64,000 nt of DNA from the NCBI RefSeq assembly GCF_026151205.1, contig NC_087074.1, positions 20,019,240 through 20,083,239 on the forward strand, in the 5' to 3' direction. A program made the position numbers and the translations under genes. Source of the stretch: Bolinopsis microptera (taxonomy: Eukaryota; Ctenophora; Tentaculata; Lobata; Bolinopsidae). A model generated the notes under the pieces. It was given only the letters and a program-made list of their open reading frames with translations. It ran no database searches and had not been told where the DNA came from. Shown one piece after another: positions 6,985 through 34,054 of this stretch (its first letter is position 1; each line of letters opens with the position of its first letter).

Positions 6985-7715
6985 TGGTTTCACATCCTTT
7001 GGTACCAACCCTTTGTAAAAAAGCTAGAGTAACTCCCATCCATAAGGCAGGAATGAAAGATGATCCTAATAATTACAGGCCAATATCCATCCTTCCACTT
7101 GTAGGAAAACTTATAGAATACTTTGTCGGCAAGCAACTCACTGATTACATGGAAGAGAACAAACTTTTCATCCGGCATCAATATGGCTTTCGGAAAAATC
7201 ACTCCACAACTTATTTGATGTACGATCTGATGGACGAAATATATATGAGTAAATCTAAGTCTTATAAACCAGGAATCATCTTTCTTGATCTTAAGAAGGC
7301 CTTTGACACAGTGAATCATGAAATATTGCTTCAAAAATTGGCATATTATGGAATTGGTGGCATTGCTTTAACCTGGTTTAAGAACTTCTTATCTTGTAGA
7401 TATCAATGCACTAGGATCAATGGCAAACTAAGTTCATTTTTAGAAGTTCTGAGTGGTGTACCACAAGGAAGCATCATTGGGCCTATATTATTTAGTATCT
7501 TCATAAATGACATCATTTATGCCTGTAACCTATCTAAGCCCTTTCTATTTGCAGATGATGGTGCACTATTCTTTGATCAAACCTGCAGAAGCACATTTAT
7601 AAACATGAAAATAGAACTTATGACAATCTTTAAATGGCTCAGTGTAAATAAATTATCACTCAATGAAACGAAGACTGAATTCCTATTGTTTGATTCTGTT
7701 GATCAACATGATAAA
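6985..7715 (+). mobile_element. LINE B, part 1: reverse transcriptase
   Basis: The frame encodes reverse transcriptase motifs in order: NYRPISILPLVGK, QYGFRKNHST, FLDLKKAFDTVNHEILL, SGVPQGSIIGPILFSIFIND and FADD. It is closely similar to ORF2 of LINE D. The copy is 5'-truncated near 6990-7005. It is broken after about 7715 by the LINE C insertion and resumes at 9563 and again at 15274. Family: Jockey/CR1-type non-LTR element. Confidence 0.85.
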
Positions 7716-9556
7716 GTAAGTAAGTAAGTAAAGATTATGACATTACATCATCACAAGTGTCTAAAAAAATATCATTGCACTAAATAGAAAAATAATTCAA
7801 ATAGATATATTCTTCCATCAACATTAATAATTTATTAAATTTAATTTTATTAATTAATAAAATCTAATGCATTATATATAAATAATTAATTAAAACTTCC
7901 CAGTGGAATAAAGATTTATAAAACGTTTCTTTGCCACAAAAGGATGAAACCAAAGATATTCATTATGTGTCTCCTTATTGCTTAAATAACTGGGTCCTTC
8001 AATTTTCCCTAAAACTTCGTTCGAAACATTCCAAAAATAAAAATCATTTAAACTGTTTTTAGAAATCATTTCTTTCTTAAATCCTTCCAACCTAACTTTA
8101 AAACTTAAAACTGTCAAGCAGTTCTTGACATCTGAAGGGAGTTTGTTCCAGTAAGGAATGACTCGCTCCGGAAGAAAAGAAGACTGGAGATTCTTAACTT
8201 TAGTTACACTCTTACTACACCTATTGGTTGAAACTAGATTAAGACCAGATCTGCTCATTCTGAACAAACCCGATCCATATTCAGTCAAACCACTAGTTAC
8301 TTTAAAAGCTTCAACAAGGTCCCCACGTATTCGCCGCACTGCCAGCGTTGTCAAATTGAGGATATCCAGTCTACGGCTGTATGGAAGAGTACCCACCTCA
8401 TCAATAAGACGGGTAAACCTCCTCTGGACGCTCTCCAGCTCCAAAACAGTCCCCCAACTTCCATGAGCCGCAACTGGATTCCACAATTGGACACAATACT
8501 CAAGATGAGGTCTTATCAAAGCTTTATAAATAGCTATCATTACAACCTTTTCTCTAATAACTAAGTTCCTTACAATCCAGCAGATCATACGATTTGCTTT
8601 AGAAATACATGCTTTTATCTGTTCATTCCAAAGCAAGGAGCTATGGGTAATAACCCCCAAATCTTTTTCCTGTGCAGATACTTCTAGTTCTACTCCATTT
8701 ACAATATAATTCGAGTTAGGATTATTATTCAGATTAATATGGACTACTTTACACTTGGCAGGGTTGAAGTTTAAGTGCCAAATACTCTCCCAAATTTCGA
8801 GTTCTAAAATATCATCAGATACACTTTTATGGTTAGCTGCATTACAAACTAACTTGAGATCATCTGCAAATAATTTAATCTTATTTTTAACATTGTCAGG
8901 TAAATCGTTTATATAAAGAATAAATAACAAAGGACCTAATACTGACCCCTGGGGAACACCAGATAATACGTGTTTCACCTCAGACCATTGTCCTTCTACA
9001 CAAACCCTCATGGTTCTGTCTGTCAGAAAGTCTTTTATAACATCTAAAACTTTTCCCTTGACCCCAAACCCCTCCAATTTAGATAGAAGTCTAAAGTGGG
9101 GGACTGTATCGAAAGCCTTACTAAAATCAAAATACAAAAGATCAACAGGAGCACCTTCGTCTAAAATATCAAGAATATTATCAAATGTCTCTAAGAGATT
9201 AGATAGACAAGATTTACCCTTCACAAATCCATGCTGATGCTTTGAAATTCGTTCTTCTAAAAATGTTAATAAATGTGCCCTCACCAACTTTTCATACACT
9301 TTGCACAAAATACAAGTTAATGAGACAGGTCTATAATTTAAGGGATCAGATTTAACACCCTTTTTGAATAATGCTACAACAGATGCTGTCTTCCAAATGT
9401 CAGGCAGGACTCCTGTTTCTGAACACTTAACAAATAATTTAGTTACAGCTTCAACAAACGTTTCATCGTATGCTAAGGATTTCAACAACTTTGGATGAAC
9501 GCCATCCGGACCAGAACTCTTAAAAACATTAAGCTTTAAAAGCTGCTTCTTGATAT
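7716..9556 (-). mobile_element. LINE C, 5'-truncated CR1-like element
   Basis: This - strand LINE is inserted in LINE B. Its 3' end is a short tandem tail on the + strand (TAAG)n at 7716-7733. The 3' untranslated part is 7734-7889, and the 5' end is cut near 9556 just upstream of the first reverse-transcriptase motif. About 345 bp of LINE B expected between the flanks (by comparison with LINE D) is missing, so the insertion was accompanied or followed by a deletion. A second copy of the same family is at 23250-24235. Confidence 0.8.
7890..9553 (-). CDS. LINE C ORF2 C-terminal part (reverse transcriptase)
   Basis: The open frame on the - strand runs from about 9553 to the stop at 7890. The first motif KSSGPDGVHPKLLKSL lies upstream of any ATG, so a start at 9488 (a TTG) is not meaningful and the protein is simply truncated. 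It then has YRPVSLTCILCKVYEK, QHGFVKGKSCL, YFDFSKAFDTVPH, SGVPQGSVLGPLLFILYIND and FADD, followed by the thumb and C-terminal region with NRMICWIVRNL and ERVIPYWNKLP. These match CR1-type reverse transcriptases of the Jockey superfamily. The endonuclease is absent. The reverse transcriptase frame has no stop, which suggests a fairly young insertion. Confidence 0.85.
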
Positions 9557-9562
9557 CAGAGC

Positions 9563-9762
9563 AGCCTTAATGTTTATAGAGACATGAAATGGTTACCACT
9601 CCATCTTAGACGACAACTCCATCTGTCAAATTATATGTTTAGAATCATCCATGACAATTGTCCTACAAACTTTATGAACAAATTTAGTTACATATCAGGA
9701 GGTAGTAGGAGCGGCGAAAGCTGCAACCTATATGTTAATAGATCAACATCACATAAAAACTT
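9563..9762 (+). mobile_element. LINE B, part 2
   Basis: The frame reads NVYRDMKWLPLHLRRQLHL and FSYISGGSRSGESCNLYV, matching the C-terminal region of LINE D ORF2 (NVYRNMKWLPLHLRRQLHL). It stops at HKN where LINE A is inserted. The last five bases AACTT (9758-9762) are repeated at 15274-15278. Confidence 0.85.
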
Positions 9763-9929
9763 AATAATAATAATAATAATAACGCTTTATTTGTATACCG
9801 CTTAGGCCGTATAAGCGACCAAAGTCCAAAAAATGGAGTTGATACTGGCCAACAAAGCGGTGCAGATAAATTTACCTTAGTAGTCCCTTTTCTAATCAAA
9901 AATTCAAATTTATAAATTGTAGATTGATC

Positions 9930-11970
9930 TTAAAGTCCTGTGTCCATGACTACTGAATCACCAAAAATACTGTTCGCACATACAGGATAGGCTTGATGAA
10001 ATAGATGGGTCTTGAGAGCCTTCTTGAAAACATCTAGTCGAGAGATGGAGCGTAGTGAGTAGGGAAGTGTATTCCAGATTTTAGGAGCAGTGTGAGAGAA
10101 AGCACCAGCTGTAGCCCTCAGCCTTGATAAAGGAGGGCGTTCTAGTAGGAAGAAGTCATGGTCCATTCTGACATGATGTTTACTAGTGTCCCTAATTTTG
10201 ACCATTGTCCTTAGATATTCAGGAGCACAATCGTTTAGGCACTTGAAAACCAGTAACGCTATCTTGAATTTGATTCGCATTGCTACAGGTAAGAAGTGTA
10301 ATTCAATCATATAGGGTGTGATGGGCTCCTGTCTCAACTTCCCATGAAGTCCGAATATGAATCTCACAGCAGTATTCTGCACTTTTTGAAGTTTCTGGAG
10401 AAGTCGTTCAGAAAGGGCACCATAAGTAGCATTTCCATTGTCCAGAATGGAATGAATTGAAGCATGTACCATTTGGATTTTGAGCTCCTTACTCAGTTTG
10501 GAACCTATTCTGCCAAGATTTCGCTGATTTACATAACAAACTCTGACAACGTTGTTGATCTGTGCCTCTAAATTGAGATGGTTGTCAAAAATGAATCCCA
10601 GATTCTTTGCTGACTTGGTAGGTTTAATGGAGCATATGCTGTCAAGATTGAATTCAACTTGTTTTGGAGCTTTGGAGTTTGTAGAGATCTCGATTATCTC
10701 ACTTTTATTGTCGTTGAGTTTCAGGTAGTTCTCACTCATCCATGATTTGATGTGCTCGAAACATTCTTTCAATTTGCTCTTCATAGATTCAATGTCCATG
10801 TCTTTCTTAGGATCAAATGAGAAGTATATCTGAGTATCATCAGCATATAGATGGATTTGGAGACCATGCATACTTGCAATATCTTGTAGCTGTTTAGTGT
10901 AAAGGATGAAAAATATAGGACCAAGAATTGAGCCCTGAGGAACTCCAATCTCGAGGTCACAGAGAGAGGAATATTCACCCTTAACACCAACGATAAAGGA
11001 TCGATTTGACAGGTAGCTTGCAACCCATTGAAGAATAATACCACTAAATCCATAGCTATGTTCGAGTCGTCTCAAAAGTCTTTTGTGATTGATGGTATCA
11101 AATGCAGCTGACAAGTCAAGAAGAAGAAGAACAGTATGACTCTTCTTGTCAACTTGGAGGAGTATATCATTATGTACCTTGAGCACTGCAGTTTCACAGC
11201 TCATGTTTTTCCGGTAACCTGATTGATTTGCTGCGAAAAGATTGTTCTTATTTAGGTACTCGGAAAACTGTGAGTGGGCACACTTTTCTATAACCTTGGA
11301 AATAAAACTGAGGTTACTCACAGGTCTATAGCTTTTCAAGTCGTCTGCATCTAGAGAGGCTTTCTTTAGGACTGGTCGTACTATAGCAGACTTCAGAGCA
11401 TGTGGAAAATAGCCCTCTTGGAGGGATAGGTTAACTATGAGGGTGATATGAGGGAGCAATTCATCGAGACAGTGCTTGAGGAGCCATGTTGGAAGAGGAT
11501 CGAGTTCACACGACTTATTATTCATCGTCCTAGTAATCAGGGAAAGAACCTCTGATCGAGTAACTAATCTGAAAGCTGTAGCAGAGCATGGTAGAGAACT
11601 ATGTGTATCATTAGGCATCTCTAACTCTTTTACACAAGGTTTGTCGTCAGATTGACTATCAGCACTGGACAGGCTTTCCTCTGAGATAGACCCATAAATC
11701 TTCTTTACTTTATCGTCAAAGTAGTTTTTGAGACTTTCTGCAACTGCTTGATGCGTGGGCCCAGAAGGGGACTTCTGAGAAAGATCTTTATCCAGAAGGT
11801 TATTTATAATTCTGTATGTAGCTTTTGGATCTCCTTTAGCATCTGTAAGTCGTTTCTCATAATAGCGATTCCGTTCTCTAGAGATGATTAAGGTAGTATC
11901 TACACAAGCTTCCCTGTAGATTTCTCTATAATCTTGAGCATCAGCCATACTTTTATGCTTCTTCCAGAGT
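9930..11970 (-). CDS. LINE A ORF2, reverse transcriptase half
   Basis: This encodes the reverse transcriptase of LINE A: motifs CELDPLPTWLLKHCL, YRPVSNLSFISKVIEK, QSGYRKNMSCETAVL, LLDLSAAFDTINHKRLL, IGVPQGSILGPIFFILY and YADDTQIYF. It ends with a long C-terminal region containing PKIWNTLPYSLR, typical of CR1/L2-type elements. An ATG at 11981 lies inside the MITE, so the apparent N terminus is an artefact; the true coding sequence resumes at 11970 and continues from the endonuclease half at 12654-13617. There is no stop in the half, so the LINE was probably intact when the MITE landed. Confidence 0.85.
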
Positions 11971-12653
11971 CCCAGTGACATAAATTTAAAAAGGGACTAG
12001 GAATCCAGTCTGGAAAGAAAAAACGGCTACCATATATTTTTAAAACGACTACCATAAATTTTTCGGCCGCTCCGCGGCCGGATAACGATTTCATTTTACT
12101 TTGCTAGTTATATTACAGAGGTTTAGTTATTCATTAGTATAGTTATTAATTCATTAGTATAGTTATTCATAATTGCCAAAAGATTGTGAAAGAATTCCTT
12201 ACCGGGTCTCGAACTCGCGATCTGCTAATGTAGTAACGATGGATTAACCAACTAAGCTACGATTTCATGTACGCTTTTGTAATATTTACATATAGATCTT
12301 CGCGCGTTCCTGCAACTACCATACTACCATACTACCAAACAGTCCATACTACCATACTGGTAGTAGGAAAATCTTGGATCCTGACAGAAATATCTTGGAT
12401 TATTTGGTAACGCGCAAGTTAAGCGCAAGAACTAGGATCCTGACAGGAATCTGGCATTTGCGCTCGATTCGAACATCTTCTCGGATAAATATAGAATTAA
12501 AGTACAGTGCGCGGCGTTACAGTGTGTAACAACCGAGAGCGGCTATTTTAAAGTTGATTTAATAATTTTGTTGACAAAAATTAGTCGGCGTGGCTATGGA
12601 AATTAATATGGCTAGGAATTAGATTCTTAGATTCCTCACTTTATGTCACTGGG
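11971..12653. mobile_element. hAT-type MITE inside LINE A ORF2
   Basis: The 683-bp element has perfect 14-bp terminal inverted repeats (CCCAGTGACATAAA at 11971-11984, complement at 12640-12653). It is flanked by 8-bp duplications TCCAGAGT at 11963-11970 and 12654-12661. An 8-bp duplication and TIRs starting C-C-C-A-G-T-G are typical of hAT elements. It has no transposase and is therefore non-autonomous. A tRNA-like segment sits inside at 12191-12262, and there are repeated ACTACCATACTACC motifs around 12314-12365. Confidence 0.9.
12191..12262 (-). repeat. tRNA-like (SINE-type) segment
   Basis: On the - strand the sequence has an A box TAGCTTAGTTGG (12248-12259) and a B box AGTTCGAGACC (12205-12215) at tRNA spacing. 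Acceptor and anticodon stems do not fold convincingly, so I take it as a tRNA-derived polymerase III promoter, not a working tRNA gene. It lies inside the hAT-type MITE. Confidence 0.6.
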
Positions 12654-13617
12654 TCCAGAGTCTTTCAGCAGCTCTGCGCTTTTTACGGGCATCATTGCAG
12701 TTTTCATTCCACCAGTCACTACGACCAGGTACAAAATAGATGTTCTTAGCTGGTGCATGCTTATTAAGAACTGAGGATATAACAGAATCGTATTTGTCGA
12801 CTGCGTCATCTAAACTAGTTAGCTGGGATGGAGATGGCATGTGGAGTACAATGTCAGCTTTGAAAGCATCAATATCAATTTTGCTAAACTCACGAACTGT
12901 TTTTTGTTCCTTACTTGGCTGCTTTGATGACACATCAATCTCGGGTGCACTAAACTTAACCAGGAAGTGATCTGACGTTGTGCCCGTGTCTTCCACAATT
13001 TCAAGCTCTGTGATGTTTAAGTTGTCAGCCGGTGATTCCAATGTTAGCACTAGGTCCAGTGTGCCGCCAGAGATGTGTGTTGGTGAGGAAACATGCTGCT
13101 TCAAGCCTTTTGAATGACAGAGTGCCATGAATTGTTTAGCCCAATAGTCTGGATCCTCTACATGAAAGTTGAAATCCCCTGCTAATATAGGAATACCAGA
13201 TTTAGTTATCAAGGTATCCATGTAATCAGAAAACTGTTCAAGAAACAATTTCTTTCGGGTTTCTTGATATTTCTTATGAGAAGAAACTTGAGTTGATCGA
13301 TAAAGGACACAAAATCTGATCAAGTGAGATTTTGCTCTGAAGACAGTTTCCAAAACCTCAAAGGAACTAAACTTCACACTGTTTCTTGTCAGAGAGACAA
13401 CCTTTGGGTCATAGATGAAGGCAACACCGCCACCTCTCCCACGTCTTGGAGCACTAATAATATCATATTTGTGGTCTTTCACCTCAGCGATTTTGGCCTT
13501 ATCATCAACTCTCAGCCAAGTCTCTGTCAAGAAGCATATATCCACGTTCTCTTCTCTCAGTAGCTCTAGTACAGATACCGTTTTGTTGCAAATGGATCTT
13601 GCATTAAAGGTTGCCAT
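12654..13617 (-). CDS. LINE A ORF2, endonuclease half
   Basis: This is an APE-type endonuclease domain. The start is taken at the ATG at 13617 (MATFNARSICNKT). A frame opening at 13659 uses GTG and is less likely. Motifs in order are ATFNARS, DICFLTETW, RRGRGGGVAFIY, LAGDFNFHVED, LDLVLT and TSDHFLVKF, giving the catalytic Asn, Glu, Asp/Asn and His expected of the fold. The ATG is about 40 nt downstream of the ORF1 stop. The frame runs to RAAERLW, then enters the MITE and stops at 12646. Before that insertion it continued directly into KKHKSMADAQDYREI of the reverse transcriptase half. Confidence 0.85.
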
Positions 13618-13655
13618 TTTCAGAGCATGGGGTGGACTGTGATGGTGTCCTGGTG

Positions 13656-15110
13656 TCACATCATGTTTTTTGAGTCATATTCTGTATTCATCACTAGCCT
13701 CTGCATCTCTCTGGCAATGATTGGACACTCCATTGATGCTGCATTATGAGACTTGTGCTGTGCTTTATCACTGGGATTCTTCGAGTTTTTGCACCTGGCA
13801 CAGCACTTTGCTTCACTTTTGGACTTGTTACTGCAATCTTTAGACAGGTGGTTTCCTGAGCAGCGGAAGCAAGTTGGATCATCAACCTTGGTAGGACAGT
13901 TTGTAGAAGTGTGACCAATTCCTTGACAATGGTAACAAGAAACAACATGAACTCGATCGGACACAGGATGGCAGGTATTTCCAAAATAAAGAGCTCTTCC
14001 TTGGTCATTCATGATGCAAGATCGGATAGCAGGAGAGACTTTAAGTGCAAATGTGAAATACTTGCTATTTTCAGTAAAACGTGACATGTACACAACCTCC
14101 AATTTGTGACCAGCATCCACAAGCTTGCGTACTCCGTCATTTTTGGCCAAGATGGACGGTTTCAGTAGCGATCTGCACTTATCTCTTAGTTTATCATCAT
14201 CGTCTGCTGTAAGTCGGCGGAAGGCATCGTCCCTATGGACGTTCTCTATTGTTAACTTTGGATACATCTTCTTTGCTTCACGCAAAGTATATCCCTTTGA
14301 AGAATCTTCATCAATCAACTGAGTAGCATTTTGCCTTGCCTCTGAATCAGGAAAACCAATAGCGATAGAGTTATTGGATTTGTTAACCTTTACAAAGTCC
14401 GTTTGTACTGATGACAATTTCTCACATACATTATTGCAAACGGACTCAGCGGACTCAGCTGTGACATCTTCAGGGGGAGATAATATAAGCACTGAACTCT
14501 TGGACTGGATCCTAGGACGAGGTGCCAATTGCTGCATCTGTGGAGTACTGCCCATGGTAGATGCCTGGAATACCTCCTGCTGTCTTTCCTGCGACTTGTT
14601 AGTAAATAGATCGGACATAAGGAATTTTTGAGAGTTAGAACTTTGGGGCCCTGATGGACCAAGCTTAGCATCAATAGCATCATGAACACTTTTAAGAATA
14701 TCCACTTTGAAATCTTTCATTTCACTTCTGAACTGATCACTGTCCATACCACCCGATCCAACCTGTTCAGAGTCTGCGTCATTACCCGTCTCAAAGGAGA
14801 TCTTCTTGTTGTCGGTCAGATTACCCGTAGTTATGCAGTTGGGACAGAACCACCAGGTACAGGGGTTCTTCTCCATAGCTGCAAGGACGTCACTGGAGAG
14901 GGGAATTGTTAAACAGAGGTTGTGGTACTTGGATTTACATTTCATGCATTCCAAAAGCTGGTCACCCGGCTGAGCATTGCAGGATTTGCAAGCGCCACTT
15001 GAAGCAATATGACCTAATCCAGGGTCAAAATCTTGGGTTTTGGACCACGTGATTAGAAGCTTCCCTCGCGGGGTTCGCCCGTCAATCTTTAATTTTAAGC
15101 AATCAGTCAT
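13656..15110 (-). CDS. LINE A ORF1: PHD finger and CCHC zinc-knuckle protein
   Basis: A 484-residue protein with a genuine ATG. An N-terminal PHD finger (about residues 38-92) has the Cys4-His-Cys3 pattern: ACKSCNAQ, LLECMKCKSKYHNLC and WWFCPNC. A low-complexity linker follows, then a region resembling an RNA-binding ORF1 core, then C-terminal zinc knuckles CYHCQGIGHTSTNC, CFRCSGNHLSKDC and CARCKNSKN...H...C. PHD domains in ORF1 are established for CR1-like LINEs; the protein is presumed to bind LINE RNA in the ribonucleoprotein. The stop is close upstream of ORF2, suggesting reinitiation or coupled translation. The frame is intact. Confidence 0.85.
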   Translation of the reverse strand: MTDCLKLKIDGRTPRGKLLITWSKTQDFDPGLGHIASSGACKSCNAQPGDQLLECMKCKSKYHNLCLTIPLSSDVLAAMEKNPCTWWFCPNCITTGNLTDNKKISFETGNDADSEQVGSGGMDSDQFRSEMKDFKVDILKSVHDAIDAKLGPSGPQSSNSQKFLMSDLFTNKSQERQQEVFQASTMGSTPQMQQLAPRPRIQSKSSVLILSPPEDVTAESAESVCNNVCEKLSSVQTDFVKVNKSNNSIAIGFPDSEARQNATQLIDEDSSKGYTLREAKKMYPKLTIENVHRDDAFRRLTADDDDKLRDKCRSLLKPSILAKNDGVRKLVDAGHKLEVVYMSRFTENSKYFTFALKVSPAIRSCIMNDQGRALYFGNTCHPVSDRVHVVSCYHCQGIGHTSTNCPTKVDDPTCFRCSGNHLSKDCSNKSKSEAKCCARCKNSKNPSDKAQHKSHNAASMECPIIAREMQRLVMNTEYDSKNMM

Positions 15111-15462: not shown

Positions 15463-16510
15463 GTATCTTCTAATTCTTTCAAATCTGAGGCATATATAAT
15501 TGATGTATCGAAAGGATTTTCCCTTTTTTTACCACCTTACCATTTTGATTGATTTTGCACATGACTGACATGTTTTAACTGGAGGAAGGGTTCGCACAGT
15601 GGTAGTTTTATAAACCACTTTTAATTTATTGACCTATTATACCTAGTGGTAGTTTTATAGACCACATTTAATTTATTTACTTATTATACTTAGTATTTAT
15701 TTTTGGTGACTGTATCACCCAGTTTTAACATTTGATAATTGTACAGTTTATTGACGACACATTGACTGAATGTTATTTAGTAAAACAAAGTATTTTTTTA
15801 GTAAAACAAAGTATTTTATTTATTAGCAGTGCAATCAATTCATATGATATAATTATAAGAATATAATAGTATGTCACACCTATTTAACTGTTACTTTTGA
15901 GTAGTCGTGCCTTGGCTAAATCTAACTAGGACCAGTGGTGTCGATTAACATTTAATAGGTGAGTCTAAGTGACACAAATTGAAAATTTTAAGAAAAGACG
16001 GATCAAAACACAGATCCAAGGACAAGGAGACCCCACTGCAGGACCATACATGCTATTGGCTTGTGCATGGCCCAAAAAGGTTCCAGTTGTCCAGGAAACT
16101 GTACGTAGCTGGTCAACTAGTTTTGAATTCAGACTAGGCTTGATTTGTTCTGGGGTTTCTAGAGGTAAGATTTGATGGTGCCAGGTTTGTTCAGGCGGAC
16201 ATGGAAATTATGCGATGGATATATAGGTATATAAAAATCATATCAATATAAAAATAGATCCAAAAATAGATCCAAAGATTCACACGGCAGTCAGGGAACT
16301 TCCAGACAGGATGCTTTTGAAACAGGTATAATTAGCGCTTTTGTAATTAATTATATGCAAGGGATGGGATGCTGATCAACTAAGCTGGATCAATGCCCCA
16401 GCTATTTAGGGGGAGCCACTCAATTTCACGCCCAGGTGTTGTCAATTGCTGGGTTTCCAGTAACAGCTTTTTGATACGGCTCTTGATCATACGGCTCTTT
16501 ATATTCTAAT
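15463..16510. other. Gene-free; LINE B 3' UTR and repeats
   Basis: No gene is visible. A roughly 52-bp imperfect tandem duplication (GTGGTAGTTTTATA...) lies at 15600-15690. A 21-bp direct repeat with AGTAAAACAAAGTATTTT occurs around 15778-15820. The proximal part is probably the LINE B 3' untranslated region. Confidence 0.5.
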
Positions 16511-16965
16511 TTATATTAGAATTATTAGAATTAGAATCAAATTTACACAGCAATACAATAAGAATAAAAATAATTTAAGAAGCTTCAATCTGCTGTGCAG
16601 GACATTCAAGTCAGTCGAAAACTGTTAGCAGAACACCCTTCTAGGGACATAAGGATATAGTATGTAAACATAATGAGTAATAAAATAATGAGTGATAAAA
16701 TAAGATATGATTTAACAGTGAACTGTGGGCATGAAGGTAACAATTAAGATTACATAGATGCCCACTTTGGGATAACGTCAGTAATGTTATTTACAGTTAT
16801 ATACAGAGAAGTATAGAACAATAATAGATTGGCAATGATAAAAAATGGGAACGAATAAAGGAGATGTTTAAAGTTCTATACTTCTGGAAATACCTAGGTC
16901 ATATATAACACAGGGGGCCTTTCCACCCGACAAAAACTCCAGCCCCATAAAATTTGTTTCAGTTG

Positions 16966-19962
16966 TCACTTAGCTAGAGTGTAGAAATAGTCGAAACTAT
17001 TGTTTATTTCATAGGATGAGACTCCTTGAATTACATCTGACATAAATTTAGATTTCATACATTGTGAGAATTTTACACTACATTCTATAGTCCTTATGTT
17101 CTCGGGAATTGTATTCCAACATTTTGCACCTAAATATGTAAAGGTTTTGTGTGTTCTGGATTTGTGAATATAAAGGTTGCACCTCTCAGCATCACGTGAT
17201 CCTCCGGATACATAAGAAAATTTATCTGTGAATGATGATGGTGCAGCCTCATTAAGAATTTTATACATATACGTTGACAGATGGAGTTGTCTTCTTAAGT
17301 GTAAGGGTAACCACTTCATATTTCGATATACATTTACTGATGGTTCCTGCCAATGAACATCCAGAGCAATTTTTGCTACTTTCTTGTATAATATATCAAG
17401 AGAATTAAGTTTGGTTTTGGCAGCCCTGCACCATATTATATCCAGGTAGTCAAATTGGGGGAGCATAAGAGCATTTACAAACATTTTTCTATATTTCAGT
17501 GGAAGAAGATTTTTCGACCTGTATAGTGCCCCTATTCTTTTAGCAATTTTTGATTTCACATAATCAATATGGTCATGAAAGTTCAATAAATTGTCTATCA
17601 TGAGACCTAAATATTTTTGAGATTTAGTTTCTTCTATAAATAGGCATTCTTTTTCCAAATCCAGAGGGATTGACAACGTGTCCAGATTAGGTGATCTATC
17701 AAATACAATGAATGAAGATTTTGCAGCATTTAGTCTCAGCTTGTTGATTCTAAGCCATTCATACACAATTTTCATATCCTTAATTACATTCTCATATATG
17801 CCTCGGGAAATGTTATCAAAATATAGTGCACTGTCATCTGCAAATAAGTAAACAGTAGATTGTGTGCAATTTCTACTGAGATCATTTATGAATAAACTAA
17901 ATAGAATTGGTCCTAATATGCTACCCTGTGGCACACCTGTTTTAACAGGGAGTGATGTGCTTACATTACCACGTATTTTGGTGTGTTGCTTTCTGTCCCC
18001 CAGGTAGCTTTTGAACCACTTTATGACAAAGCCATCAACTCCATAATACTTAAGTTTTTTTAATAAAATATTATGGCTTACTGTGTCAAAGGCCTTTTTG
18101 ATATCTAAGAATACAATTGCAGGTTTCTTCTGTGATTCCTTAGACGTAAATATTTTATCAAACAGATTAAGCATTAAAAAAGTGGTGGAATGATCTTTTC
18201 TAAAACCATACTGATGGTTGGTAAGCAGTTTATTTGTTTCAACATAGTCTGTAAGCTGTTGGTTAACAAAATATTCTATGCATTTTCCAAGTAGGGGGAG
18301 TATGGATATTGGCCGGTAGTTATTTGGATCATTAGGGTCACCAGTTTTAAGAATTGGAGTGACTGATGCAATTTTACATGCCAACGGCATTGTTCCACTT
18401 TTCATACTAAGGTTTATAATATGAGCTACTGGATCGATGATTTGGGGAATAATATACTTATATATTTTAATGGGCATGATATCGTTAATCGATTTATCTG
18501 ATGGTATACTGAGTATATATTCTTTTACTTGTTCAACAGTCACCTCTTCGAATACAGAGAGTTTACACTCTGTTGGAGGCGGCATATATTCTAGGAAGTC
18601 GTCTGAATCCTTTTCCTTAATCGATTCTTGTATTATTGTACCAACTGTGGCAAAATGCAGGTTAACTCCGTTAACATTTAAGTTGCTTGGGGAAGAGCTA
18701 CTTATTTTTCCAGGTAAGTTTGAAGCATGTTTGATAGTTTTCCAAATGCCTTTTAAATCGTTTTTTGCACTTTTCACAGTAAGGTCCTGAACAATATTTG
18801 TACGTCTGTTTTCTTTGGATAATTTTGTCACATAGTTTCTTTGGGGACGATAGTTATCCCACGAAGTAGAGCATTTCTTATGTAGTTCACTTTTTCTGCA
18901 TTTACATATTCCATTAATACAATTACACTTGAATTTGTTTAATTGTCCTAAACACTTTTTATACTTTCTGAAGAGCATCTTCTTCTTCCGTATTTCTGCC
19001 AACAGTTCTTTAGAGGGATTACAGAGAAAGTTACTATTACATTTTATCTGTTTAGGTGGACAGTAATTATCATACGATTCCTGGATGTGATGATTAAGTC
19101 CATCTAGGGCATGGTCTACATTAGTACAGCTTAGAATATTACTGTAGTTGCTGGAGGATCCCAGAAAATAGCTTAAGGCTTTCAGATTGTTTAAGGAGTG
19201 GTCTCTGATAAGAACCTTCTGGAATTTACTAGCTTTACTTACTTTAAAGTCGAGAACACATTTGAGAGCTTGGTGATCTCCTATTCTATCATCAAGTACT
19301 TTACACTCTATGAAATTAGAGTAACAGTTAGTCATGACAACATCTATTGTGCTCTGCGTTATCCTACCATCTAAGTTTGCAACTCTAGTAATTCCTGTAA
19401 CAGTCTGTATCATTCCAAAGAGCTTCATTGTTATATCTAACTTTTTATAATCTAGATCAGATAAAGAGTTTTGGTTAACATTAACATCGCCAATCCATAT
19501 TACTTTCTTACCTTGAAGTTTCATCATACATTCAGTCATATAATCAAGGAAAGTATCTAGGTGACAAAAGTTTTGTGATCTGTAGAAGCAGCAAATGTAC
19601 AGATTGGCATCCTTGAGTTGTATCCATATAGCTTCGATTTTAGAAATATCAGAGTAAGTTATATCTAAATTGAGTAATTTGTGGTTTACATTTTGGTTGA
19701 TCAATATACCACACCCTCCTCTTCCTCTATCGTTAGGTCTATCACACCTTATAAAATCAAAGTTTAAGGGGAAGTTAAGTGTACTAGTGTCTATATCAGA
19801 TTTAAGGTTTGTCTCATTAATTCCAATTATGTCAAGCTTTTCGCGAAATATTAGCTCCTGTAGTTCGAGAGTTTTTGCCAGATTAGTCAGGCCACCCTGT
19901 ATATTACATAGACCAAGAGAGAGATTATCGTTTATTGAGGTACGAATGTGGTAATAATAAAG
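16966..19962 (-). CDS. LINE D ORF2: endonuclease and reverse transcriptase
   Basis: The frame is open from 19962 (after a TAA at 19963-19965) to 16966, about 998 codons. An opening at 19704 is a TTG in the middle of the endonuclease. The APE-type endonuclease begins GLCNIQGGLTNLAK, then IIGINETNL, DRGRGGCGILIN, WIGDVNVN, TIDVVMTN and GDHQALK. The reverse transcriptase has NYRPISILPLLGK, QYGFRKDHST, FLDIKKAFDTVSHNILL, TGVPQGSILGPILFSLFIND and FADD. The C-terminal region has MKWLPLHLRRQLHL and a Cys-rich segment (FKCNCINGICKCRKSE) lies between the two domains. No ATG precedes the endonuclease motifs, so the start must be non-AUG, coupled to ORF1 or spliced. Jockey/CR1-type family. Confidence 0.85.
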   Translation of the reverse strand, partial: LYYYHIRTSINDNLSLGLCNIQGGLTNLAKTLELQELIFREKLDIIGINETNLKSDIDTSTLNFPLNFDFIRCDRPNDRGRGGCGILINQNVNHKLLNLDITYSDISKIEAIWIQLKDANLYICCFYRSQNFCHLDTFLDYMTECMMKLQGKKVIWIGDVNVNQNSLSDLDYKKLDITMKLFGMIQTVTGITRVANLDGRITQSTIDVVMTNCYSNFIECKVLDDRIGDHQALKCVLDFKVSKASKFQKVLIRDHSLNNLKALSYFLGSSSNYSNILSCTNVDHALDGLNHHIQESYDNYCPPKQIKCNSNFLCNPSKELLAEIRKKKMLFRKYKKCLGQLNKFKCNCINGICKCRKSELHKKCSTSWDNYRPQRNYVTKLSKENRRTNIVQDLTVKSAKNDLKGIWKTIKHASNLPGKISSSSPSNLNVNGVNLHFATVGTIIQESIKEKDSDDFLEYMPPPTECKLSVFEEVTVEQVKEYILSIPSDKSINDIMPIKIYKYIIPQIIDPVAHIINLSMKSGTMPLACKIASVTPILKTGDPNDPNNYRPISILPLLGKCIEYFVNQQLTDYVETNKLLTNHQYGFRKDHSTTFLMLNLFDKIFTSKESQKKPAIVFLDIKKAFDTVSHNILLKKLKYYGVDGFVIKWFKSYLGDRKQHTKIRGNVSTSLPVKTGVPQGSILGPILFSLFINDLSRNCTQSTVYLFADDSALYFDNISRGIYENVIKDMKIVYEWLRINKLRLNAAKSSFIVFDRSPNLDTLSIPLDLEKECLFIEETKSQKYLGLMIDNLLNFHDHIDYVKSKIAKRIGALYRSKNLLPLKYRKMFVNALMLPQFDYLDIIWCRAAKTKLNSLDILYKKVAKIALDVHWQEPSVNVYRNMKWLPLHLRRQLHLSTYMYKILNEAAPSSFTDKFSYVSGGSRDAERCNLYIHKSRTHKTFTYLGAKCWNTIPENIRTIECSVKFSQCMKSKFMSDVIQGVSSYEINNSFDYFYTLAK

Positions 19963-20138
19963 TTAAAAGGAGGACAAATCTATACGTTTCTTCTTCAAGC
20001 AATTTAAATAAAATTCATGACATTTAGTTTTATGTCATGCTGATTTATTTGTGACTTAATAATTTAAAATGTGATTCTTTGATAAAAGTATCAAATACTC
20101 ATTTAACTACAGAACTTTCTACAATCTGAATGGAAAGA

Positions 20139-21875
20139 CTAAGTTTGCTCATTGTGGGATAAATATTTTAAATGTTTCGCCAACCTGGCGATTCCCTTGA
20201 TATTAAGGTGAACATTATCTATTCCCTTTTTGAAAAATACCTGTTTCCTTACTCCAGTAACTCGGCTGGTAAATAGTCTATTATTACGTTCTAAATCTAT
20301 ATAATTTAACCCATGGCTAGAGCAGGTGTTAGAAATAAACCTATTTAATTCGTTGATAACTTCATTTTTGTTATAACTGCTCCTAGGTAAAATATTTATA
20401 ACTGAAATTCTTGCTCCAATAAACATTCCCCAAAGTATACTAAGTATTTGATCAATTCCTTCTGTTGCATTTTTCATAGAAATATAATTGTTACAGACAG
20501 AATCTACGTAGTTTGTACCTGTTAGTATGAAAACACGCTTTACATCCTTTTTATCCAGTTTTTTGAACTCCTCATCATGTAACAGCCTATTTAACATTTG
20601 AGCAGAGTTCGCTCCAGGGTAGAAGAACACCTTAGCTTTCTGCTTCCTCGAACTTAGTAGAGTTCCGTTGAGGTCCCTGAACATACTGCTGCTGATGTAG
20701 ATGGTATCAATTGGCAGGTCACTTGGGATCTGTTCAGGTGAAGGAGGCGCTGCAGTTGACTTGGCTGAACTCTTAACTCTGGAATGGTGGACTTCAAATT
20801 CACGTTCGTTGTAGGGTACATATCCACTAGCTGTAGAAGGTGATTTTCTTGGTTGACTGCAGACAACTGATTTGATAAGTCTAAAAGTTAAACTGATCCT
20901 TTTGTCTGTGCATAGTGGATCGGGACATAGTTCATGGTTGAATTGATGTTGGGACTTTTTGGACATAAGACATACATCTCCATGTTCTAAAATTAGGGAA
21001 GTCACCACTTGTCCTGTTTTGATTTCAGTCAACTGCATCATCCTGGAAGCACCAAGGGACACTGTTACAATGTACGAATTTTCTTCAATAAATTCTTCAT
21101 TGTCACTATGAGCAGGCATATGTTCCTCTCCAGATTCATAGAGATTGACCAGAACACTGTTGTAGTTGTATTCTGGGAATAGCTCATCTAGAAAGGAACA
21201 TATACTTGCCATGTAAGATCCCTGGGGGATCTTCTTTGGGTCATGCATTCCTCCACTGTACACGTAAGGATGTTTCCCAAAGTAGACTGATTTCCTGTTA
21301 TGGAAGTGGTGGCTGAACTTTAATTCCTCAAATAAGATTTCAACAGAAAATTTGCTGAATGGTGCCTGTTCAATAAGTTCAACAGGTGTGATGGCGATAT
21401 CAGGGATTTCATAGTCTGTAGTAAGGTCTGAACTTGACACAGGTGTTAAATCTAATCCTGCATAATATTCACCACTTCTTGGAATAACTGAGCCAGTGTC
21501 TGTAATCTCGCTGGTTGAAATGTCTATGTTGTTAGAAATAATTGATAGAGGTGCTTCTACATAGCCATCATCATCAATCAACAAAAATGATTCTGGTACC
21601 TCACATTCATTGTCATACTGAATGTTATTGTTGCTGGAGTCCGTTTGCGCTGATACATCGAAACACTTGTATTGAGCAATAGATTGGTTTCCACTTTGAG
21701 GCGAAATAGTTTCATTAATCTCTGCTATTGTTTGTGAGGTTTGAACAATCTCCTCTAAAATGAACACTTTACGCTCCAGAAACTTCACGCGAGTTTCAAG
21801 ATCTGAACAGTTTGTACATTTTGTATCACATTCCATCAATAATTTGCCGAAAAATGTTTCCAATGAATCGTTCAT
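20139..21875 (-). CDS. LINE D ORF1: coiled coil, AlkB dioxygenase, SGNH esterase
   Basis: A 578-residue intact protein. Residues 20-50 form a likely coiled coil next to a Cys pair. Residues 175-335 match the AlkB/ALKBH2-type Fe(II)/2-oxoglutarate dioxygenase fold: NLYESG (244-249, the N-x-Y-x-x-G 2OG-contact motif), HSD at 256-258 (iron), IVTVSLGASR, LEHGDVCLM, QFNHEL with H314 (third iron ligand) and RISLTFR (326-332, R-x5-R binding 2OG). Every catalytic position I know for the family is present. Residues 388-572 look like an SGNH hydrolase: IYISSSMFRDL (nucleophile Ser block), G421, GTN at 453-455, and DNVH with D553 and H556. Esterase ORF1 domains are known in CR1-like LINEs; the AlkB fusion is not one I recall. 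It might demethylate or repair element RNA or cDNA, which is inference. Confidence 0.85.
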   Translation of the reverse strand: MNDSLETFFGKLLMECDTKCTNCSDLETRVKFLERKVFILEEIVQTSQTIAEINETISPQSGNQSIAQYKCFDVSAQTDSSNNNIQYDNECEVPESFLLIDDDGYVEAPLSIISNNIDISTSEITDTGSVIPRSGEYYAGLDLTPVSSSDLTTDYEIPDIAITPVELIEQAPFSKFSVEILFEELKFSHHFHNRKSVYFGKHPYVYSGGMHDPKKIPQGSYMASICSFLDELFPEYNYNSVLVNLYESGEEHMPAHSDNEEFIEENSYIVTVSLGASRMMQLTEIKTGQVVTSLILEHGDVCLMSKKSQHQFNHELCPDPLCTDKRISLTFRLIKSVVCSQPRKSPSTASGYVPYNEREFEVHHSRVKSSAKSTAAPPSPEQIPSDLPIDTIYISSSMFRDLNGTLLSSRKQKAKVFFYPGANSAQMLNRLLHDEEFKKLDKKDVKRVFILTGTNYVDSVCNNYISMKNATEGIDQILSILWGMFIGARISVINILPRSSYNKNEVINELNRFISNTCSSHGLNYIDLERNNRLFTSRVTGVRKQVFFKKGIDNVHLNIKGIARLAKHLKYLSHNEQT

Positions 21876-21960: not shown

Positions 21961-23250
21961 TACCTCCAATTACATTACATTTTTGTCATGTTGGTCATTT
22001 TGGTCATACCTCAAATTATTTGTTATATAGTAGTGTTGAAAGTATTAAAACTATTAAAACTTAGGGTTATATTCTAGATATTTTATTTATTTTTCAACAG
22101 GCGACAACTTCCTGTTCACCCTGGATTCATAAAAAAATTTTAACTTTAAGCAATTGTCTAGAAACTTCCATTAACTTGATAAAATTGAGAACGAAAGCAC
22201 TATTAATACAATCACAGGCTGCTGACTTAAAAGAGACTTGGACTCCAAACAATTTTAAGTTACAGTAATTTAATCTAATTGCAGCAGCACATAACATAAT
22301 TTAAACTATTGCTATCATTATTGTACTACAGACTGAAAATATCTCAGATCTATTTTGGGCGTTTTTAACAACTTGTAGTTGTAATTCTTAAATATTAGAT
22401 ATCCTAATTTATAACTTTTTAATCAGAGTGAATTAATAATTGATATTTGATAATTTATTTATTTGATAGTTTAGTCTGATATTGATATTAATATTGATTA
22501 TATTGATATTGTTATTATTGAATGAAGCTAATTCCAGACATAAATAATACTACTTCTATTAACAAAGGGACTTGGAGTATAAACGACCAATTTTGCATAA
22601 TTGTCTTTCCAACCACGAATTCAGGAGGCAAGGGTGGGTGCGTAAACTTTATGGTCTGCACTCTCAGATCCTGTATCACCCTGGATTCATTTCGACGTAT
22701 TTTTGGTAAAAGTATACTGTATATACTTTCTGGTCACTCTCTTGCTACTCCAAGTCCCCTAAGATATATGGTCTAAAGTTTGCACTAGTTATATATATAA
22801 AATATGTTTTTGTCTGCTTTAACTGATACTAAATAAAATTGTTGTTTTCTTGAAATTGTTGTTTTCTTGTTTTTTCTTCTATATTAGTTACTCATATCTC
22901 TTTTACAGACTTTTTTACAAGGACATTGACAGATGATACTCACATTAGGCATTCATTATTGCATCTAAATTATTTCACTTGCATTAGGTTTAGAAATTTA
23001 TTCTCTGGTTAACAGATTTCAAATGTTTAATTAATTTGTAGTATGACAGTAAGGTATATAAGAAGTTATTTAATTTTGCTTGGGCTATTATATTGACTAT
23101 TGAGGTTTAATGATGATATGGAATTTGAATTCTATATAAATTTACACTATGTGGTTGGGGCATTTTGCATAGTAAATATGGTTACTACTCCTATATATCA
23201 TATTATTTGATTGGTATTCGATTTCTGATTATTTCTCTAGGAATATGATT
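21961..23250. other. Gene-free AT-rich interval
   Basis: No supported gene. A phrase CACCCTGGATTCAT occurs twice (about 22119 and 22678), suggesting remnants of one dispersed repeat. An 84-codon frame at 22522 has no recognisable feature. Confidence 0.4.
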
Positions 23251-26750: not shown

Positions 26751-27029
26751 ATCAATAATAAATAGTTTAGATCAAAAACTTTACTTTTCAACATACTAAT
26801 TTTAAATTTTAAATGTGAAATGCCTATTTAACACATTATACCCCGTTAAAACGTTATGAAACCGCAACACACAATAATTTACAATTAATATAAAATTAAA
26901 AAGTTTTAATACATAAAATGAAAGTTTTAATACTTTCGGCGCTGCTATATAACAAATAATTTGAGTTTAGGGATCAAAATATGTCGTAATTCCCACAAAG
27001 GGGCGCTGTGAGTTTACACGTTGCTTTAG

Positions 27030-29352: not shown

Positions 29353-29494
29353 CAGGAAAAAGGTGAACTGGTCGACATGTACCGCTCAAATTGTTTTAAT
29401 CATTGTATATTATACTCTACATCTTCTTTCAATTGATGTATTAAAAATATTATGATTAATGGATATTATCTTCAATTTTGATTTCATCACAGGA

Positions 29495-30412
29495 ATGGGT
29501 GGTTATTTCACAAGGCCTAGTTCCAATGTAGGAGGAGCTTTAACTAAAGACTTGTTAGTGCAAAATTTGAAAAATGGGGTTTACAAAAATATCATTATCA
29601 TGTGTGGTGCTGGGATATCTACTGCTGCTGGAATCCCTGATTTTCGCTCACCATCAGCAGGATTGTATTTTAAATTGAAAAAATACGACCTACCTTATCC
29701 AGAAGCAGTTTTTGATGGAGATTATTTCAGACAAAATCCTTTGCCATTCTACAGCTTGTGTAGAGAGCTGTATCCGGAGGTACTCACTCCAACAACTACA
29801 CACAAGTTCTTTACATTGTTGAGGGATAAACATCTTCTTCGTCGTGTCTACACACAAAATATTGATGCTCTTGAAATTCTTGGTGGACTGAACAAGAAAG
29901 AGGTTATAGAAGCTCATGGCAGTTTTCAAAGGAGTTATTGTACAAGTCAAAAGTGTGGAAAGGAATACGACCTTCAGTGGTTGAAAAAGGAGATGTTTAC
30001 CCCGGAGAAGAATGATGGCGTACCAAAATGTGAAGACTGTCAGTCCGTAGTCAGGCCGGATATTGTGCTATTTGGAGAACAACTTCCCAGTAGATTTCAC
30101 AGCAGCATATCATCTGACTTTTCTGCATGTGATTTACTGATTGTACTTGGAACTTCTCTAGCGGTCAGTCCATTTAATACACTAGTTGGTAGGACGAAAC
30201 CTGGAGTTCCGAGGGTCTATATCAACAAGACAAAGCCTGGTAAAGTCGAAGGTATAGTTGGGTGGATGCTAGCATTATCTGCAAATGTCGACTTTTCTCG
30301 CGATGAGGACCTATTCTTGCAAGGTTTTTGTGATGATATTGTTGCAGATATCTGCTCTGCAGCAGGTATGAGTGAAGAACTCGAGAACATCCAGGTTCAG
30401 TCGATGAAGTAG
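29495..30412 (+). CDS. SIRT2-like NAD+-dependent protein deacylase
   Basis: A class I sirtuin that removes acyl groups from lysines using NAD+, with the same motif order as animal SIRT2. From the ATG at 29495 (305 residues): Rossmann GAGIST at 38-43, AGIPDFRSP, LPYPEA, TQNIDALE with N122 and D124, catalytic H141 in EAHGSF, structural zinc Cys at 149, 154, 179 and 182 (YCTSQKC, KCEDC), PDIVLFGEQLP, LGTSLAVSPF and INK. All catalytic residues are present. The ATG follows an acceptor (TTTCATCACAG, exon start 29493), so an upstream exon may exist; a start at 29459 would lie in intron. The catalytic core is in one exon. SIRT2, closest by motif, is mainly cytosolic; the location here is inferred. 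Confidence 0.9.
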   Translation: MGGYFTRPSSNVGGALTKDLLVQNLKNGVYKNIIIMCGAGISTAAGIPDFRSPSAGLYFKLKKYDLPYPEAVFDGDYFRQNPLPFYSLCRELYPEVLTPTTTHKFFTLLRDKHLLRRVYTQNIDALEILGGLNKKEVIEAHGSFQRSYCTSQKCGKEYDLQWLKKEMFTPEKNDGVPKCEDCQSVVRPDIVLFGEQLPSRFHSSISSDFSACDLLIVLGTSLAVSPFNTLVGRTKPGVPRVYINKTKPGKVEGIVGWMLALSANVDFSRDEDLFLQGFCDDIVADICSAAGMSEELENIQVQSMK

Positions 30413-31750: not shown

Positions 31751-32389
31751 TTAAACTAAACTTTCTTGGCTGTCTGTCGGCCCAACTTGGGGGACAACGT
31801 CAACAACTGGACAATTATATATATACATTTTATGGTACACTATGGCACATCTTGAATAAATAGCTATCATACCGGCTGTATACATTGCAAACAGAACAAG
31901 AATGACAGTCACTCTCAATGGAATGGGCAGCGTAGTCAGCCATACCAACCAGATGACGATACCGTCCAGGATCCCGATAATAATTGCCACAAGGATGGCA
32001 CTGCAATATTGGCCCATCATCCTGTCCGTGGAGGGGCTGGTTTTCCACTCTCCCACTGGGGTTACTTTGTGGATACAGTTGTAGGTAGCACTACAGTCAG
32101 GACACCTGTTAGTCAGATTAGTGTGAATCCATTGGATTAGGCATGGCATGTGTGCGAATCTGTAATGTCTTCTTAAACAGTGACACGGCTCTGTCAATAT
32201 GGATGAAGCTGGACCAGACTGCATCATTCTGGCGGCCATACTTGTAGCTTCACTTCCATTTCCGCCCAACGTCATCCTTTGTAGCTTGCCAAGATAGATG
32301 CCAGATCGCCCACAGAAACGGCAGTATTCCACGTCCATTAAAGATATAAACTTCTCAACCTCAGACCGTTCCGCATCCTCGGTAGTCAT
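31751..32389 (-). CDS. MARCH-type membrane RING-CH E3 ubiquitin ligase
   Basis: A 212-residue single-exon protein. The start is chosen at the ATG at 32389 (MTTEDAERS, A at -3); the frame upstream only offers a TTG. RING-CH zinc ligands: C23 and C26 (YCRFC), C69 and C71 (PCHC), H80 and C83 (HMPC), C96 and C99 (RCPDC), i.e. the C4HC3 order of MARCH proteins. The loop between the first two pairs is long, with an extra KLQRMTLGGNGSEATSM stretch. Two hydrophobic segments, about 129-153 and 158-178, give a hairpin membrane anchor. The tail ends DSQESLV. MARCH proteins ubiquitinate membrane cargo in the endosomal or secretory system; which paralogue this is cannot be told. Confidence 0.85.
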   Translation of the reverse strand: MTTEDAERSEVEKFISLMDVEYCRFCGRSGIYLGKLQRMTLGGNGSEATSMAARMMQSGPASSILTEPCHCLRRHYRFAHMPCLIQWIHTNLTNRCPDCSATYNCIHKVTPVGEWKTSPSTDRMMGQYCSAILVAIIIGILDGIVIWLVWLTTLPIPLRVTVILVLFAMYTAGMIAIYSRCAIVYHKMYIYNCPVVDVVPQVGPTDSQESLV

Positions 32390-34054
32390 CTTTACTGCTA
32401 GACTTGTCTGAGAAACGGAGAACAAATTTAAACCACGTCTAAGTCGGATTTACAAGTATCTACGTTTTACGGTATAGAAATTTAATTAAAAGCATCGTCG
32501 AAGCGGCTTCTTGGCTCATTAGATTGATTGTATTACAGATTGTATTACAGATTAACTTTTAAGTGGAAAAGCAAGAAAATTATCAAAGAAAGGCATTCTT
32601 TTGTGCACAAAATTAGTCGTATCGTGAAAAAAATAAAGGCAGGTATTGACAGTCTGAATCTACCGAAGTCGTAGTCAGCAAGGAATAAACTGTGCACAAC
32701 GACGAATTATAAATCAAGTCATCCGTGGCCAGGGAGCGACATAGCATCGGCATAGTGACAATTTGTGATACAATTGTCAGGTTTATTCTTTTGTGCGAGC
32801 TATTGTTCTGTGAAATAAGAAGAATGTAGACAGGAATCCAGAAGTTTGACATACCCGGAACGTGGAACTATTCCAGTATAACTACGGATTTATAATAATG
32901 AATAAAAAACACACTTTATGATTGACGGACTGAGTATACGATGGTAGTTAGTGCCGGAAGTTTTGAGAATGATAATACTCGTGGGTTGGGTGTGTAGCTC
33001 AACCCTTAAAAGACCTATTCTAGTTGTTGGATTTAAAGGCAAAGCACAAGTATTATTCATTGTTGAAAGTAATAATTGGAGCACTATTAATGACACAAAC
33101 ACATACATTGCTTCATCTGTCCAATAGTGATTTTAACTAGAAATGACACTGCTCGAAGCTCCTTATTGAACCAACTCTATTCTAGGACCGTACTTTCTTA
33201 ACCTGCTAATATTGTGATCAGAATGACGATTCCGTTCACTGAGGGATGAACTACTCAAGAACAAAGAGCTACTCAAGAACAAAGAGCTACTCATTCAGCT
33301 ATCACTTTATACATCATTAACTTCATAACATTGACTTTGTTGATGTTTGTATGTATGTATGTATGTATGTTTGTATGTTTGTATGTTTGTATGTTTGTAT
33401 GTTTGTATGTTTGTATGTAGTTCCAACGTCTATATTACAGATTCAGTACAATACGATGTACGTCACATTACTTTAGACAATCTGACGCTCCTCATCATCA
33501 CAACATATTGTGGCCTCATTACATAGAATTAAGCTATAATTATGGAATAAATGTCACAAATACTTAACATACCATTCGTATACCTTTTGCATTCGAGTAT
33601 TTTCATACTAATCCCATCTTACTAATGACGTAACTATCATAATTGGTAATTTTTCAGATTGAATAACCACATAGACACTACATGTATAATTAAATTAACA
33701 TTCGCTGTGGGGCTAGCCTATTTTTCGTCGACAAATGAACTATGAAAGGTACCGGTAATGTATTATTACGATGTTGAATGAACTAATGTATCACTACGAG
33801 TATTGCCTTTCTACACAATTACTATTCTCAACATGTAATGTATTGACGGGTGTTGTTATTATTGTAGACGGTGTGTAAACAGCATACCTTCCGATATTAC
33901 ACATAAAATTCGATCTGACAACCGAAGGAAGAAGAATTATTTGTGAGCATTTCCCGTCGAGTTTGTTTGTTCATACAGAATATAGCCAATCTATACATTG
34001 TATTTAGTTGCTGCTGAGTTTTTGTGCTTTTGAAAGCTACCTTTTTCTCATACC
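32390..34054. other. Gene-free interval; shared promoter region of divergent genes
   Basis: The MARCH gene (-) and the proline-rich gene (+) are transcribed away from this stretch. I see no coding frame. A TGTA/TGTTTGTA microsatellite lies at about 33341-33418. Confidence 0.45.
33341..33418. repeat. (GTAT)n / (GTATGTTT)n microsatellite
   Basis: An uninterrupted run of GTAT units followed by about six copies of the 8-base GTTTGTAT unit. Confidence 0.9.

Follow-up and report, generated by a model that had tools for sequence, protein, structure and literature searches.

Can a long interspersed nuclear element (LINE) of a ctenophore carry its own nucleic-acid demethylase, and what would such an enzyme do for it? 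The question is raised by the first open reading frame (ORF1) of an element on the minus strand (20139-21875) of a 64,000-nucleotide stretch of Bolinopsis microptera contig NC_087074.1, hereafter the window, which the initial annotation took to encode an AlkB dioxygenase fused to an SGNH esterase. The analysis described here finds the fusion to be real and conserved across a LINE family, whose ORF1 is a variant of the so-called esterase type, with a function predicted from sequence and structural models.

The 578-residue frame is real and uninterrupted. Pfam recognises the AlkB-type family PF13532 in it (9e-21), along with a GDSL lipase domain whose match (2.1e-5) falls short of that family's own cut-off. 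In the AlphaFold2 model the structural match to AlkB is strong, with ALKBH2 bound to double-stranded DNA (dsDNA) as the best structural neighbours, while the C-terminal part is predicted to adopt an SGNH fold with the Ser, Gly, Asn, and His blocks of the esterase-type LINE ORF1 proteins (ORF1p). The residues by which the AlkB family is defined in PMC544882, namely HxD, a distal His, and RxxxxxR, are all present. The fusion is thereby borne out by sequence, homologues, and models, as is the claim that the frame and the AlkB landmarks H256-x-D258, H314, and R326-x5-R332 are intact. ORF1 thus has both predicted folds, with both active sites preserved in the aligned family, and it adjoins an ORF2 encoding an endonuclease and a reverse transcriptase (RT).

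The family was collected by a homologue search that returned 139 proteins at E-values up to 1e-3 among 7307 candidates. The 120 listed are 28-51% identical to the query, many of them over 96-99% of its length, and 118 have a precomputed PF13532 assignment, the exceptions being P0054 and P0076. All seven named homologues among these 120 belong to the ctenophore Mnemiopsis leidyi, which lends no support to the cnidarian host guessed at first. Two alignments were made: A1, with the window protein plus 65 of the 120 listed homologues, and A2, with 60 of 120, both hand-picked with no fixed rule to thin out fragments and near duplicates. In A1, PF13532 occurs in 66/66 sequences and PF13472 in 40/66, and H256, D258, E260, H314, R326, T330, R332, S395, and S397 are each conserved in 66/66; of 121 sequences searched by pattern, 117 contain HxDxE and 118 contain R-x5-R. 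Mean pairwise identity is 0.43 for both the AlkB and the SGNH domains, 0.28 for the N-terminal helix, and 0.17 and 0.18 for the linkers, and the pairwise distances of the two domains correlate strongly (r 0.595, as against at most 0.107 in 999 permutations).

In a FastTree phylogeny built from the AlkB and SGNH domains, no change falls on the iron ligands or on either arginine, and positions 244, 259, and 262 change 15, 18, and 17 times. The iron-binding residues, on which relaxed selection was named at the outset as a sign against the proposal, thus show no change across the 66 aligned members. The same pattern bears on a different reading, in which the AlkB fold does no more than bind nucleic acid, providing the RNA contact that esterase-type ORF1 otherwise lacks, and catalysis is dispensable. 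Esterase ORF1ps in the 2013 Repbase survey have no structural RNA-binding domain (PMC3905857), position 259 is variable, and the H448A mutant of an orchid retrotransposon AlkB, dead as a demethylase, still binds RNA (PMC9289625), all of which would suit such a module; a pure binding role is not expected, however, to hold the iron ligands and arginines unchanged while their neighbours vary, and we regard it as quite improbable. Because the query carried AlkB and predicted proteins were sampled, the set leans towards intact AlkB domains, a bias that leaves unexplained the fixed ligands beside variable neighbouring pocket positions.

Some further observations concern the reach of the family. Scans of viral and prokaryotic contig collections gave no nucleotide relative, which says little about animals, and a tblastn search of the window with the family's 120 listed ORF1s (E up to 0.01) found no second ORF1 relic, the other matches all coming from one protein, P0116, via its RT part. 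Separately, P0120 (756 aa, on a contig of 2848 bases) appears by eye to contain two AlkB-like domains, the first with HxE for HxD, and an SGNH domain with GDS; it possibly represents a second AlkB ORF1 lineage.

That ORF1 belongs to a LINE is indicated by what lies next to it. ORF2 matches the endonuclease family PF03372 (6.5e-6, residues 20-167) and the RT family PF00078 (2.4e-39, residues 541-788), and its RT matches the R2 and LINE-1 ORF2p structures in the PDB, a combination of endonuclease and RT that characterizes non-LTR (long terminal repeat) retrotransposons with an apurinic/apyrimidinic endonuclease (APE). In M. leidyi, the 905-aa P0116 holds, within one gene model, part of AlkB, part of SGNH (by eye), and then an RT 54.7% identical to the window ORF2; as it has no endonuclease, it must be a decayed or wrongly joined copy, though the order is kept. 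Among the 120 ORF1 and 120 ORF2 matches listed, moreover, nine ORF1/ORF2 pairs have longest contigs of identical size, whereas a control with 120 shifted offsets averaged 1.1 such pairs and never exceeded 5. Two of the nine exceed 500 kb, and shifted offsets never matched above 20 kb. These repeated signs of linkage, together with the 139 homologues, many nearly full-length, and the conserved active sites, largely contradict the idea that the domains were joined by accident in one copy, or that a host gene happens to lie beside an unrelated LINE fragment; a single copy is visible at the DNA level, as such an artefact would have it, and we rejected this explanation as scarcely credible.

Which kind of AlkB, then, has the element? 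With ORF1 as query, phmmer against solved structures finds human ALKBH3 at 1.4e-7 and ALKBH2 at 2e-6, and a profile of the 66 family members reaches ALKBH3 at 1.5e-26, ALKBH2 at 1.2e-23, E. coli AlkB at 2.4e-6, and ALKBH5 at 0.081. Judged by these profile E-values, ALKBH2/ALKBH3 is the closest subfamily among solved structures, and the resemblance to ALKBH2 noticed in the initial annotation holds for both sequence and fold. The same profile reaches a "putative platelet activating factor" chain (2hsj) at 1e-6. The viral Foldseek matches of the ORF1 model are headed by RNA-virus polyproteins.

This placement weighs on two other roles for the enzyme. It might be an eraser of host marks, removing N6-methyladenine (m6A) or another mark from element or host RNAs and so escaping epitranscriptomic silencing, an escape already proposed for an orchid Ty3/gypsy AlkB that demethylates m6A in vitro (PMC9289625), and one for which the change from Asp to Asn or Ser at position 259 may be relevant by admitting other bases. 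With sequence and fold nearest ALKBH3/ALKBH2 and ALKBH5 reached so weakly, m6A was rejected as the leading substrate, and we consider host-mark erasure unlikely. The domain might instead work on the DNA side, on insertion-site DNA or nascent cDNA during target-primed reverse transcription, repairing N1-methyladenine (m1A) and 3-methylcytosine (m3C) or removing 6mA from DNA. In favour of this are the dsDNA-bound ALKBH2 structures as best structural neighbours, a match in overall fold; against it, ORF1 proteins are held to form ribonucleoprotein particles (RNPs) with the element RNA (PMC3905857). A DNA-side role also seems improbable to us.

Position 259 sets the family apart from its nearest relatives. 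ALKBH2 and ALKBH3 align with ORF1 without gaps, each with an Asp directly after HxD opposite N259, in both PDB sequences; in the family this column reads Asn 33, Ser 18, Asp 11, Thr 2, Cys 1, and Leu 1 (n = 66). We take it to be the counterpart of ALKBH3 D194 and ALKBH2 D174, presumably a selectivity position. In a MAFFT alignment the Asp after HxDK of E. coli AlkB falls opposite E260, not N259, and as the alignment is ambiguous there, statements on selectivity rest on ALKBH2/3. E. coli AlkB engineered to carry Asn or Ser at that Asp is reported to act on methylguanines. The frequent Asn and Ser at 259 would thus suggest a shifted or broadened base preference.

From these elements a mechanism can be assembled. 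The sequence data suggest that the element uses its own demethylase while copying itself, and we think it likely that this is an APE-type LINE in whose esterase-type ORF1p an AlkB domain, inserted between helix and SGNH, demethylates template RNA or cDNA. ORF1p would multimerise on the element RNA through a coiled coil, as which the N-terminal helix may be read by its length and by the parallel with PMC3905857. The basic SGNH domain would anchor the particle on lipids or membranes, a role put forward for ZfL2-1 ORF1p. The AlkB domain would contact single-stranded nucleic acid and oxidatively strip N-linked methyl groups, so that the template RNA, or else the fresh cDNA, would be free of them by the time ORF2p does its copying at the target site. 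The likeliest substrates would be m1A and m3C, with methyls on the base-pairing face, because the domain is of ALKBH2/ALKBH3 type. Methylation of the base-pairing face, as in m1A and m3C, stalls reverse transcriptases, and m6A as a rule does not, so that an ALKBH2/3-type enzyme would suit a reverse-transcribing parasite. We offer only tentatively a narrower version, in which an ALKBH2/3-like domain, kept over deep divergence with 259 drifted to Asn or Ser, strips RT-blocking methyls (m1A, m3C, and possibly methylguanines) from RNA in a membrane-bound RNP before target-primed reverse transcription. If true, base methylation of the template RNA would be a real and previously unrecognised barrier to LINE replication.

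Several points count against this account and need to be set beside it. Fe(II)/2-oxoglutarate (2OG)-dependent demethylation by ORF1p is a predicted activity. N244, presumably the counterpart of the 2OG-binding Asn of AlkB, is kept in 29/66 sequences and the Asp of ALKBH2/3 at 259 in 11/66, so that there may be differences in substrate and even in the handling of the cofactor. In this copy the AlkB domain has an acidic pI of 5.5 (family median 6.0 for the 115 of 121 sequences parsed), a point against its binding RNA strongly and unspecifically on its own. Identity to this copy does not exceed 51% for any listed ORF1, the 65 of 120 listed homologues in A1 were chosen by hand, and with an AlkB-bearing query, members that lack AlkB would escape. 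As for linkage, equal contig size falls short of proving that two frames share a contig, and chance accounts for one or more of the nine pairs, as a contig of 3,850 bases cannot accommodate both ORFs. Agreement of the ORF1-ORF2 distances is weak, with r 0.50 for the window and seven of the nine pairs, a value reached by 1154 of 40,320 permutations; left out were P0055/P0188 (3,850 bases) and P0003/P0235 (discordant distances), and with all nine pairs included r is 0.23 (a value given without permutation). Finally, the relatives P0123-P0127 have a predicted Met just ahead of the segment matching INDNLSLGLCN of the window, where the window ORF2 lacks an ATG, its first in-frame ATG lying deep inside the endonuclease. 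This is suggestive, not proof, of a copy disabled in ORF2, since the relatives' starts were assigned by gene callers, and an alternative start codon is possible.

The features of the element are collected in the table. The tandem repeats in the probable 3' untranslated region (UTR) lie at 16498-16523 and 16514-16533, and the 3' end given is approximate. An affiliation with the CR1/L2 clade of the Jockey superfamily is suggested by no more than the kind of ORF1 and the seeming absence of poly(A).

Features of the AlkB-bearing LINE, in window coordinates, with residue numbers referring to ORF1
Feature	Position	Strand	Basis
ORF1, 578 aa: N-terminal helix, AlkB, linker, SGNH esterase	20139..21875	-	open frame; 139 homologues; Pfam; AlphaFold2 model
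Predicted N-terminal helix, residues 21-57	21705..21815	-	DSSP on AlphaFold2 model, block pLDDT 73-91
AlkB-type Fe(II)/2OG dioxygenase domain, residues 160-336	20868..21398	-	
Predicted iron ligands H256-x-D258	21102..21110	-	conserved 66/66
N259, aligned with the Asp after HxD of ALKBH3/ALKBH2	21099..21101	-	HMMER alignments
Predicted distal iron ligand H314	20934..20936	-	66/66
R326-x5-R332, 2OG-binding Arg and AlkB-specific Arg	20880..20900	-	each 66/66; motif per PMC544882
SGNH esterase domain, residues 387-578, basic (pI 9.8)	20142..20717	-	
S397 in S395-S-S397-M, probable SGNH nucleophile	20685..20687	-	S397 66/66; role from place after first strand (model)
Spacer, 176 bases, ORF1 stop to ORF2 open frame	19963..20138	-	ORF coordinates
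ORF2, 998 codons stop to stop, APE-type endonuclease and RT	16966..19962	-	Pfam; PDB matches
Probable 3' UTR	16498..16965	-	short A/T-rich repeat (TATTAGAAT unit) near end, no long poly(A)

Other elements share the window. At 6999-7721 and 9557-9763 (+) lies a related LINE ORF2 relic, 97-98% identical to database protein P0216 and interrupted by an opposite-strand RT ORF at 7890-9488, which together look like a nested insertion. Another LINE has an ORF1 at 13656-15110 (-) with a PHD finger (3.8e-5), a sub-threshold CCHC knuckle, and no AlkB, along with an endonuclease-like ORF (by eye) at 12646-13659 (-) and, at 9930-11981 (-), an ORF that resembles ORF2 in tblastn and is RT-like. Two host-like genes encode a SIR2 deacetylase (29459-30412, +; PF02146, 1.4e-55) and a RING-variant, MARCH-like protein (31751-32425, -; PF12906, 6.4e-5). 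A 43-base repeat, 91% identical and in opposite orientation, occurs at 22010-22052, upstream of ORF1, and at 26923-26965, about 5 kb apart. Outside the window, one ORF2 relative of 972 aa, P0154, is labelled as a Tenacibaculum sp. metagenome-assembled genome and is probably animal DNA in a bacterial bin.

The family opens a test of whether methylated template bases limit LINE replication, and its assets for this purpose are a natural enzyme, a clean iron-ligand mutant, and many natural variants at 259. If active with a new base preference, these domains could be used for methyl removal before RNA sequencing.

Among known systems, the closest in architecture are the esterase-type (Type IV) ORF1ps, such as that of zebrafish ZfL2-1, with an N-terminal coiled coil (here a predicted helix), a poorly conserved linker, and a basic C-terminal SGNH esterase with a conserved active site, encoded upstream of an APE-RT ORF2 (PMC3905857; PMC4120745). 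Unlike them, the present protein has an AlkB dioxygenase between helix and esterase. With the ZfL2-1 esterase 4c1b the match of the family profile is weak (E 0.032), and this structure is not among the 50 matches listed by Foldseek or VIA-align, which is no argument against kinship. Negatively charged phospholipids are bound by the ZfL2-1 esterase, whereas oligo(A) RNA is not, and the RNA-binding domains absent from its type in the 2013 Repbase survey include the RNA recognition motif (RRM) (PMC3905857); here the type has acquired and retained a nucleic-acid-modifying enzyme. The domains recorded in a survey of Jockey-superfamily ORF1s are coiled coil, RRM, C-terminal domain (CTD), CCHC, PHD, zinc finger/leucine zipper, and esterase, the last confined to vertebrate groups of L2 and CR1 (PMC4120745), whereas PMC3905857 reports the esterase type from numerous animal phyla, with RTEX and Penelope-like elements among its carriers; the word AlkB does not occur in either paper.

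AlkB domains of plant RNA viruses have long been known (PMC544882, in which the words transposon and retrotranspos are absent), and those of the Alphaflexi-, Betaflexi-, and Closteroviridae (named in PMC9289625) resemble the present case, at the level of the fold, in that there too a mobile RNA genome brings along an AlkB domain. Unlike here, the viral AlkB sits in a replicase polyprotein. We know of no such plant viral polyprotein with an RT or SGNH domain. From human ALKBH2 and ALKBH3, and from E. coli AlkB, the family differs by Asn or Ser after HxD in 51/66 members and by being embedded in a retrotransposon protein.

The nearest precedent is found in orchids, where Ty3/gypsy elements carry an ALKBH5-like ORF; Gypsy_Pa_2799, like the present element, has an AlkB-family dioxygenase whose iron and 2OG ligands are intact, in its case as a separate extra ORF of a plant LTR element acquired recently in Phalaenopsis (PMC9289625). 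The initial annotation knew of no AlkB domain in CR1-like LINEs, and none was found for any LINE among the titles and abstract openings listed from the open-licence PMC literature, with Repbase entries outside the search and an earlier record possible. The present enzyme, unlike that of the orchid, belongs to a LINE, is fused to SGNH within ORF1, is ALKBH2/3-like rather than closest to ALKBH5, and has aligned relatives 30-51% identical to this copy. As far as the literature searched extends, it is the second retrotransposon AlkB after that of the orchid, from which it differs in both element class and AlkB type.
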